Assembly (NCBI GenBank): GCA_014490595.1
Contig: CP061031.1
Location: 1,488,001-1,552,000, forward strand
From: Corynebacterium wankanglinii
GTDB taxonomy: Bacteria > Actinomycetota > Actinomycetes > Mycobacteriales > Mycobacteriaceae
Length of the DNA: 64,000 bases
Direction of reading: 5' to 3'
The notes below the pieces were generated by a model that saw nothing but the letters and a program-made list of their open reading frames with translations, made no database searches and had not been told where the DNA came from. Shown one piece after another: positions 19,911 to 24,420 of the stretch (position 1 is its first letter; every line of letters begins with the position of its first letter). The position numbers were made by a program, and so were the translations under genes.

Positions 19911-22045
19911 TTAACGCGACTCGCGCGTGGATGCGATCTCGTCCTCAGTGGCGATGTGGTTCTCGGACGACATCGGCACAACCGTCGGCAGAATCACCGG
20001 CTGGCGTTTGTAGTTCTGCTCGATCGCACGGGAGACCTTGCGGCGGATCTGCTGCACCATACGGAACGGATCGTTCTCGCCCTCAGCGGCGAGATCACCC
20101 ATGACGGCTTCCACGCCCTCGATGACCTTCTTGTTGAAGTCACGGTCATCGTCGGAGTAGCCCGTGGTGGAAACCTGCGGGATCTCCAGCAGGCGGCCAG
20201 TGCGGTCGTCGATCACGCAGGTGATGGACACGACACCACCAGAGGCCAGGGAGGAGCGCTCGCCGAGAACATCCGGATCGACCTCACCCATAGTGGTCCC
20301 GTCAACGTAGAGCTGGCCCACCTGGTACTGGCCCGCAACCTTGATCTGGCCCTTATGCATATCTACCACGACTCCGTTTTGCGCAAGAGCGGTATTGGAG
20401 GGCTTCACGCCGGTGGAGATTGCAAGCTCCTTGTTAGCGCGCATGTGGCGCCACTCGCCGTGTACCGGCATCGCGTTCCGCGGACGCGCGGCGTTGTACA
20501 GGGCGAGTAGCTCGCCGGCGTAGCCGTGACCGGACGCATGGACGTGCGCCTCGGAGTTCGTGATCACGTTCGCGCCGATCTGGGCGAGATTGTTGATCAC
20601 GGCGAACACCGGCTTCCTCGTTGCCCGGGATGAGGGAGGACGACAGGATGATGGTGTCGCCGTCGTGGATGGTGATTTGCCGGTGCTCGCGGCGCGACAT
20701 GCGCGACAGAGCCGCCATCGGCTCGCCTTGGGTGCCTGTGGTGATGAGCAGCGTTTTGTGCGGCGCCATCTTGGCTGCTTCCTCGATCGGGATGATCGTG
20801 CCCTTCGGCGCGTGCAACAGGTTCATCTTCTCCGCGATCTCCATGTTGCGCAGCATCGAACGGAACGTTGAACGCCACCTTGCGGTTGTTCGCTACGGCC
20901 GCGTTGACAGCCATCTGCACACGCGAGACGTTGGAAGCGAACGACGCGATTACGACGCGCTGCCGGGCACCCGCCACTAGGCGTGTCAAGGTCTCCTCAA
21001 TGCCCGCCTCCGAGGCGGAGATGCCCGGAATCGTCGCATTGGTGGAATCGCACATGAATAAATCGATGCCCTCATCGCCCAAGCGCGACAGCGCGGGGAT
21101 GTCGGTCGGCTTACCGTCGTACGGGGTTTGGTCGACCTTGACGTCGCCGGTCATGACAACGTGGCCGGCACCCGTCTTGATGGATACACCCAAGCACTCC
21201 GGAATGGAGTGGTTCACATGCCAGAAACGGAGGCGGAACGGCCCGACAGTGACCTCGGAGTCTTTGTTCACGTCGTGCAGCTTGGGACGCTGGCGGTGTT
21301 CCTGCGTCTTGGCCTTAATCAGCGCGTTGGTGAACTTGGATGAGTAGATCGGGATGTCGTGGCGGAGTTTGAGCAGCCAAGGAATGGCCCCGATGTGATC
21401 TTCGTGGCCGTGGGTGACCACGAGCGCGTCTACCTTGTCCAGTTTGTTTTCAATCGGCCCGAAGTCCGGCAGCACCAAGTCCACGCCCGGCTCATCGGAG
21501 TTCGGAAACAGCACGCCGCAGTCCACGATGAGGAGCCGACCGTTGTATTCGAACACCGTCATGTTGCGGCCGATCTCCGAGATACCGCCAAGCGCGTAGA
21601 TACGCAACGTGTCCTTGGCCAGCTTCGGCGGTGCCGGCAAGCGCTTAGTTAAGTCCGCGCCCTGCATGGACTTCATAGGATTGCGACGGCCACCGCCTTG
21701 GTTGCCACCGCCCCCGTTGTTGCCGCCACGGCCGCGGCGACGGCGGTTTCGGTTGCTGCCGCCGTTGTTGTCGCGCCCCTCATGGTTGTGGCCGTCGTGG
21801 TTGTTGTCATCGCGGTGGTTGTTGTCGCGGTTGTTTCCGCCACGGTTGTTTCCACCGCGGCCCTGTCCGCCTCGGCCGCCTCGGTGGTCATCACCGTTTC
21901 CGCCGTCGCTTTCGGCAGGTGCGTCACCGCCGCCATCCCTCGCGGGGGCGTCGCTGGGGGCCTGGAAAACCGGCTGCTGCTCGGCCGCTTCGGGCGGTCC
22001 AGCCTTGCGCGTCACCTTTCGTGCGCGGTTGCGGGGTTCATTCAT
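19911..22045 (-). CDS. rnj: Ribonuclease J, two frameshifts in this sequence
   Basis: Metallo-beta-lactamase/beta-CASP nuclease with 5' exo- and endoribonuclease activity in mRNA decay and rRNA maturation. The N-terminal 130 residues are an unusual disordered region very rich in Asn, Gly, Arg and Asp. The catalytic core follows: GGISEIGRNMTVFEY, then the zinc motif THGHEDHIGAIPWLL. The segment MLRNMEIAEKMNLL and the beta-CASP motifs TTGTQGEPMAALSRM and ILSSSLIPGNE are in the second frame. INNLAQIGANVITNSEAHVHASGHG, with the C-terminal HVHASGH histidines, is in the third. Frame changes are needed near 20868 and 20613. The latter fits one extra G in GAGGAAGCC. RNase J is highly conserved, so sequence errors are likely. 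It follows dapA by two bases. Confidence 0.93.
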
Positions 22046-22047
22046 AT

Positions 22048-22992
<945 letters not shown>

Positions 22993-23625
22993 TTATCGAC
23001 GTTCCTCCTCCAGCAAATCCGCAAAAAGCAGCGGCGCTTCTCCCACCATGATCTCGCGCACTGCCAGCGCCAACGCACGCTTCTCCTCGTGTTCGAAACG
23101 CCCTTGGTGCTGGGTGATGAAACCGCGCCACACACGAAATGTCCCCGTTGCGACAATCTCGGTGGCGGCGGCTGCCGGGGTGAGCGACTCGGCGGCTTCG
23201 CGGGCGCGTTTGCGGCGCACCAGCGCGTTGGGCTCGTCAGCCATCGCCTCCTCAAGCGCTTGGAGCAGCTCTTGGCGAACGAATTGCGCTTCCTCCACTG
23301 CCGCTTCAAACAGGCGGGTGAGGTCGTCGCTGGCCGCAACGGCCGCGGGGACTACTGCCCCGGTGCCGCCGCGTTCGGACACGGCCAGACCGCAGCTGCG
23401 CAGGGCGGTCGCCGCGCCCCGCGAGACATCCTGGAAGTGGAGTGTCGCGCTGGCGTGGTCCAAAAGCTCGGCGAAGGAGCCCGCGAGGTTGTCGGCGTTG
23501 CGCCGGAGGAGGGCAACCGGAGGCTCGTCGCTAAGTGAGGCATACGCAACTGCAGCCTCCCCCGCGGTGACTCCGTCTGGCTGCGACAGCCGCAGCGCGG
23601 TGGCGGCAACGAGCTTGACCTGCAT
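22993..23625 (-). CDS. ThyX-like protein lacking the ThyX catalytic motif
   Basis: 210 residues, located between dapB and dapA exactly where C. glutamicum carries thyX (flavin-dependent thymidylate synthase). Parts of the ThyX fold are recognisable: LLDHASATL (residues 54-62, ThyX LLEHANAT), DVSRGAATAL (66-75, ThyX GISRSATHEL), QELLQALEEAMADEPNALVR (118-137) and FRVWRGFI (163-170, ThyX FRTWRHFI). The defining RHR-x7-S substrate/FAD motif is replaced by RSCGLAVSERGG (76-87). The conserved arginine after FRxWRxFI is also missing. The start ATG abuts the dapB stop (TAAATG). Catalysis as a ThyX is very unlikely. A structural or regulatory role, or slow decay, is open. The frame is intact. Confidence 0.72.
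   Translation of the reverse strand: MQVKLVAATALRLSQPDGVTAGEAAVAYASLSDEPPVALLRRNADNLAGSFAELLDHASATLHFQDVSRGAATALRSCGLAVSERGGTGAVVPAAVAASDDLTRLFEAAVEEAQFVRQELLQALEEAMADEPNALVRRKRAREAAESLTPAAAATEIVATGTFRVWRGFITQHQGRFEHEEKRALALAVREIMVGEAPLLFADLLEEERR

Positions 23626-24420
<795 letters not shown>

Follow-up and report, generated by a model that had tools for sequence, protein, structure and literature searches.

The window analysed here is a 64,000-nucleotide stretch of Corynebacterium wankanglinii contig CP061031.1, and the gene under study lies within it between dapB and dapA (Table 1). It encodes a homologue of the flavin-dependent thymidylate synthase ThyX that lacks the substrate-binding residues of that enzyme, and is referred to below as pseudo-ThyX. 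Its ATG start follows immediately on the TAA stop codon of dapB, and 36 bp separate its end from dapA. A sequence-only reading of this locus had described a ThyX homologue without the catalytic motif in just this setting, and the description was confirmed. The protein matched the Pfam Thy1 profile (PF02511) with an E value of 1.3e-12 and 48.3 bits, above the gathering cut-off of 24.8, and the closest solved structures by sequence were the ThyX proteins of C. glutamicum (3ge9/3fnn, E 6e-24) and M. tuberculosis. Each of the segments singled out in that reading (LLDHASATL, DVSRGAATAL, DEPNAL and FRVWRGFI) was located in the protein, and the tertiary fold of ThyX is predicted to be kept. Similarity to ThyX, on which the description depended, was thus strong by profile, by sequence and by predicted fold. 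The NCBI thyX equivalog profile (TIGR02170) gave 34.2 bits and its cut-off of 87.9 was not reached. The protein collection holds a 98%-identical protein, in a 29-member cluster that may contain the sequence of the window itself.

Table 1. Features of the pseudo-ThyX locus, in coordinates of the window
Feature	Position	Strand	Basis
Pseudo-ThyX gene, ThyX-homologous, 210 residues, without the ThyX substrate-binding residues	22993..23625	-	Pfam and NCBI profiles, sequence, predicted fold
Codons 76-87, RSCGLAVSERGG, replacing the RHR-x7-S-x-R motif	23365..23400	-	alignment
Codon 173, His instead of conserved Arg (Arg174, T. maritima numbering)	23107..23109	-	alignment
Codon 57, His retained in 90 of 90 loci, degenerate or not	23455..23457	-	alignment
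Codons 166-167, Trp-Arg retained in 90 of 90 loci	23125..23130	-	alignment
dapB, upstream neighbour	23626..24369	-	stop codon abuts start of the pseudo-ThyX gene
dapA, downstream neighbour	22048..22956	-	profile match, gene order
TATCCT, -10-like box just 5' of the dapA start	22965..22970	-	pattern match
rnj, RNase J gene, 3' of dapA	19911..22045	-	

In T. maritima ThyX the conserved residues Arg78, Arg80, Ser88 and Arg90 contact deoxyuridine monophosphate (dUMP) (PMC3498832, in part), and the dUMP-contact residues given there were assigned to corynebacterial positions by motif spacing. Where canonical corynebacterial ThyX reads RHRHFSFSQLSQR, the window protein has RSC-GLAVSER, and the alignment used contains 8 gap columns there. 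Gap placement is uncertain, since SER of the window protein can be aligned with canonical SQR; neither placement restores R78, R80 or the full length of the loop. His173 occupies the position at which canonical ThyX has the Arg of the FRxWRxFI-x2-R block. Both changes that the sequence-only reading had pointed out, in the RHR-x7-S stretch and at the Arg after FRxWRxFI, therefore hold, and 0 of the 6 active-site residues checked is retained in the alignment used. Judged from its sequence, the window protein should be unable to make thymidine monophosphate (dTMP). Elsewhere, the N-terminal third is gapped against canonical ThyX, one gap spanning 11 alignment columns, a feature that the sequence-only reading had passed over.

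The contig, at 1,997,846 bases, contains one Thy1 match and one match to ThyA (E 1.3e-123), so that thyA, as the sequence-only reading had asked, is present elsewhere in the genome. We infer that ThyA supplies the dTMP of the cell. The assembly has a stated completeness of 78%, and the rnj gene is split by a frameshift into 482 and 232 residues, where the relative at locus L003 has one frame of 704 residues. Together these suggest possible indel errors in the assembly; the pseudo-ThyX frame is itself open.

Loss of the substrate site is not peculiar to this species. A Thy1 match was found in 240 of 242 Corynebacterium genomes, as was a ThyA match. The two genomes without Thy1 (G190 and G193) also lack a DapB_C match, so these assemblies probably do not include the region, and clean absence of the gene was not observed in the 242 genomes. 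From the 240 genomes with Thy1 we read 90 loci, namely the 30 with the highest scores, the 30 with the lowest and 30 hand-picked from the next-lowest, a choice that omits some genomes of similar score (e.g. G040, G115, G116, G151 and G226) and leaves 150 loci outside the sample. All six motif residues were kept in 57 of the upper 60 loci and five in the remaining 3. Among the lower 30, five were kept in four loci (L036-L039) and none to three in the other 26. The 25 loci left after removing L035-L039, the top scorers of the 30, are called strong cases here, although this boundary is somewhat arbitrary, since L035 keeps three of six residues, as does L040. By this count the window species and 24 other Corynebacterium species have lost most of the substrate-binding residues of their ThyX homologue. 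Reading frames are open in all 30 low-scoring loci, and ThyA is intact in all 30 of these genomes. The window protein is also short, its 210 residues comparing with 250 in 39 of the 60 higher-scoring relatives.

Loss was more frequent at the dUMP contacts than at other conserved positions. Five contact columns were scored (R78, R80, S88, R90 and R174 of T. maritima ThyX). All five were kept in 57 of the 60 higher-scoring loci and four in the other 3, as against none in 15, one in 8 and two in 2 of the 25 strong cases, and no single column was retained in more than 24% of these (range 0-24%). As a reference we took the 96 columns conserved at 95% or more in the 60 higher-scoring loci. Mean retention was 0.10 for the five contact columns (averaged from the listed values) versus 0.47 for the 91 other conserved columns (Mann-Whitney p 0.0045). 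Fifteen of the 96 were retained in at least 90% of strong cases, with His57, Trp166, Arg167, Glu181 and Pro198 present in 25 of 25.

To place these changes we used a tree of DapB and DapA from the 90 loci. Because the sample is non-random and the tree a quick one, built on two neighbouring genes, the counts of losses are valid for this tree. Membership of the lowest 30 requires at least five changes on it, of which starred branches force four, and the strong set requires six. The window falls within a clade of 12 altered species (Shimodaira-Hasegawa-like approximate likelihood-ratio support 98%), and the motif loss is common to this clade, which answers the question whether the change is clade-wide. 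A single clade of 24 strong cases, the gappy L063 being left out, was rejected (log-likelihood 235 lower, approximately unbiased test p 2e-51); the group for this test had been defined by ThyX scores ahead of tree building. The proposal that an ancestral thyX lost catalysis while its frame stayed open is thus supported on sequence evidence in its substance and amended in its number: there were several losses in the genus, not one.

The altered gene is under purifying selection, a point that the sequence-only reading had asked to have checked. In a pairwise codon model the ratio of nonsynonymous to synonymous substitution rates (dN/dS) had a median of 0.085 over 13 pairs of strong cases, ranging from 0 (a saturated pair) to 0.19; DapB and DapA in the same pairs gave 0.045 and 0.095, and intact ThyX gave 0.020 (10 pairs). 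The likelihood-ratio statistic against dN/dS = 1 was at least 75 in 11 of the 13 pairs; the remaining two gave 19 and 63. The corresponding ratio of proportions of differences (pN/pS), followed in two clades, stayed within 0.17-0.59 in all 30-column windows from one end of the gene to the other. A simpler method applied to the window, L003 and L004 gave 0.21-0.36 for the gene versus 0.09-0.24 for dapA and dapB. ThyA served as a control in 10 altered and 8 intact pairs, values with a synonymous rate (dS) over 10 being excluded. ThyX dN/dS was 0.085 in altered and 0.016 in intact pairs (9 and 8 pairs; p 0.0006, a rough value because the compared pairs share lineages), whereas ThyA dN/dS was 0.045 and 0.044, respectively. 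Since the ThyA rate is unchanged while that of ThyX is raised yet low, the relaxation is specific to the gene and far short of neutrality. Neither mark of a pseudogene, a dN/dS near 1 or a broken frame, was seen, and the random decay with stop codons that would be expected of relatives of a dying gene was not found in any of the 30 low-scoring loci. We also observed that intact ThyX is more constrained (median dN/dS 0.016-0.020) than ThyA (0.044), though ThyA is present.

The gene order dapB - gene - dapA is found in 89 of the 90 loci. The other locus, L063 (genome G124, 2-1603), has an altered thyX after dapB, followed by a long frame that looks by eye like a membrane acyltransferase, not by dapA. 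Of the low loci that include dapA, 29 of 29 have, by pattern match, a TAnnnT box 5-11 bases ahead of its start, as do 50 of the 60 other loci, and dapA is predicted to be transcribed from its own promoter as a leaderless mRNA. In the window clade, conserved DNA near this box takes in the final codons of the gene before it. We considered the C-terminal Arg-Arg of this clade as a new protein motif and rejected it, as its codons and the stop codon lie within that conserved DNA.

A wider survey covered 401 genomes from 31 genera of the family. Thy1 was matched in 315; Corynebacterium accounts for 53 of these, including 10 low scorers. In other genera 262 matches were found, and only three had E values above 1e-40. 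These three low scorers (G274, G454 and G509), together with G251 as a check, were considered as cases like that of the window and rejected, as all four have RHR-x7-S-x-R; among them are one fragment at a contig end, one gene split over two frames and one distinct short type of ThyX. The last, L097 in the draft genome G274 from another genus of the family, is a 197-residue frame, RHRNGAFLERSLR, with the motif intact, and is perhaps phage-derived or a contaminant. In the sampled family the gene is therefore high-scoring or absent outside Corynebacterium, and intact or hollowed out inside it.

Based on these results, we favour the account, which we hold to be probably though by no means certainly correct, that pseudo-ThyX is a selected, non-catalytic pseudoenzyme with a second function of ThyX unrelated to thymidylate, probably serving as a folded scaffold for a binding partner. 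The sequence-only reading had put forward a partner of an enzyme or a nucleotide sensor as candidate roles. The residues of the synthase site were lost in several lineages while the protein stayed under selection and ThyA was present in the same cells, and the simplest explanation is that a second, non-catalytic function already existed in the ancestor. The retained function would then go back to a second role long present in actinobacterial ThyX and would act by binding rather than by chemistry, because no common replacement for the motif is seen among the lineages. An ancestral function of this kind fits what is written of intact proteins: M. tuberculosis thyX is essential despite thyA, from which the authors infer a function beyond dTMP synthesis, and C. 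glutamicum ThyX, reported to lack detectable activity in vitro, has a reported role in stationary-phase survival (both PMC3352284, in part). Gene order alone would name DapA, DapB and RNase J, which share the operon, as first candidate partners. A broader proposal, which we regard as evenly balanced, is that the second function of actinobacterial ThyX needs the fold and not the site for dUMP and flavin adenine dinucleotide (FAD), and that Corynebacterium, having ThyA, shed the synthase at least five times, leaving about 25-30 natural separation-of-function proteins.

A different outcome, in which the old active-site loop was rebuilt and the protein is now a new enzyme or binds another ligand, is in our judgement unlikely. 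In most of this clade G79-x-A81-V82-x-x-R85 replaces RHR-x7-S-x-R, and the four named residues are invariant, at the position of the old loop, in all 40 rows of the window-clade alignment A3, even though identity of these rows to the window protein goes down to 44% (range 44 to 98%). Near relatives dominate A3, however; two further members of the clade break the pattern, L058 with His at 85 and L062 with His at 81, for which reason we give it little weight. The sequences at the motif site are moreover unrelated in the other lineages of loss, so retention across all lineages cannot be put down to one new chemistry. That the protein still functions as a thymidylate synthase, by way of an atypical active site, is hardly credible. 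The Pfam cut-off is passed, retention of the fold is predicted and several relatives are so named by NCBI, yet no checked active-site residue survives, the score is far below the equivalog cut-off and ThyA is present.

Two accounts without a function for the protein were reduced to minor rivals by dN/dS, by windowed pN/pS and by the region upstream of dapA. The frame might be maintained only for its neighbours, through polarity on dapA, translational coupling or internal DNA that regulates dapA, as the abutting dapB stop and the short distance to dapA would allow; the final codons, stop included, are indeed conserved as DNA in the window clade, and the C-terminal Arg-Arg may reflect that DNA and not the protein. 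Polarity would protect the frame and not the amino acids, whereas constraint on the protein extends along the whole gene. The -10-like box of its own before dapA, found in every low locus with dapA, and the predicted promoter weaken the idea further, and L063 retains the gene with no dapA after it, so we consider it improbable. Still less probable is slow decay in which stop codons have not yet been acquired. The altered proteins evolve faster than intact ThyX, many are shorter, and loss is graded, with five of the six motif residues still present in L036-L039 and none at the other extreme, all as decay would have it, but the 30 frames are open despite large divergence (dS above 1 in 4 of 8 window-clade pairs) and the likelihood-ratio statistics given above speak against neutrality.

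Several observations weigh against a selected second function. By dN/dS, the rate of evolution of the altered proteins is about fivefold that of intact ThyX, so that such a function, if any, constrains fewer sites. One of three early-stage pairs, L036-L037, has a dN/dS of 0.37, which is not clearly below 1. DapB and DapA showed no significant difference in dN/dS between the altered and intact ThyX groups (p 0.27 and 0.08), and no co-evolution was seen; faster evolution of these neighbours beside altered ThyX, considered as a hint of a physical partner, was dropped for this reason. Thy1 is missing from 86 of the 401 family genomes and from 10 of the 31 genera, so the function is not required everywhere. 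C. glutamicum thyX is reportedly non-essential in vitro (PMC3352284, in part), and one review suggests that mycobacteria with both ThyA and ThyX may represent an intermediate stage of gene transfer (PMC5954106, in part).

Published discussion leaves unanswered why ThyX persists in bacteria that have ThyA and why M. tuberculosis depends on it (PMC3352284, in part). Homologues of ThyX that have been hollowed out repeatedly and are still selected offer natural separation-of-function material, with which the question is directly testable in harmless laboratory corynebacteria. If the broader proposal holds, altered proteins swapped into C. glutamicum would single out the function for which mycobacteria cannot do without ThyX. 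ThyX is also a drug target, and inhibitors of the active site could miss the function that is needed if this is not catalysis. Database names mislead in this family, as several relatives of the window protein carry the NCBI name FAD-dependent thymidylate synthase. Our literature search, largely outside subscription papers, found no description of a ThyX without the motif, and passages of PMC1971073 and PMC5954106 give none.

Three known systems come closest. One is C. glutamicum ThyX, which the titles of PDB entries 3ge9 and 3fnn call atypical and not required for thymidylate. The sequence-only reading had taken the C. glutamicum gene to be active; this stands insofar as the gene can substitute for thyA in an E. 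coli mutant, and fails insofar as the purified protein had no detectable synthase activity (PMC3352284, in part). RHR...SQR is intact in that protein, whereas the window protein has lost it, is gapped in its N-terminal third and is shorter. Flavin-dependent thymidylate synthase is a homotetramer whose active site lies between subunits. M. tuberculosis ThyX (PDB 2af6, 3gwc and 3hzg), reported to be tetrameric (PMC2386288, in part), is a synthase in vitro (PMC3352284, in part); no such activity is expected of the window protein. Finally PolB, the UMP/dUMP (uridine and deoxyuridine monophosphate) methylase of Streptomyces cacaoi (PDB 4p5a), is active according to its PDB title, in contrast to the window protein, which lacks the nucleotide-binding residues.
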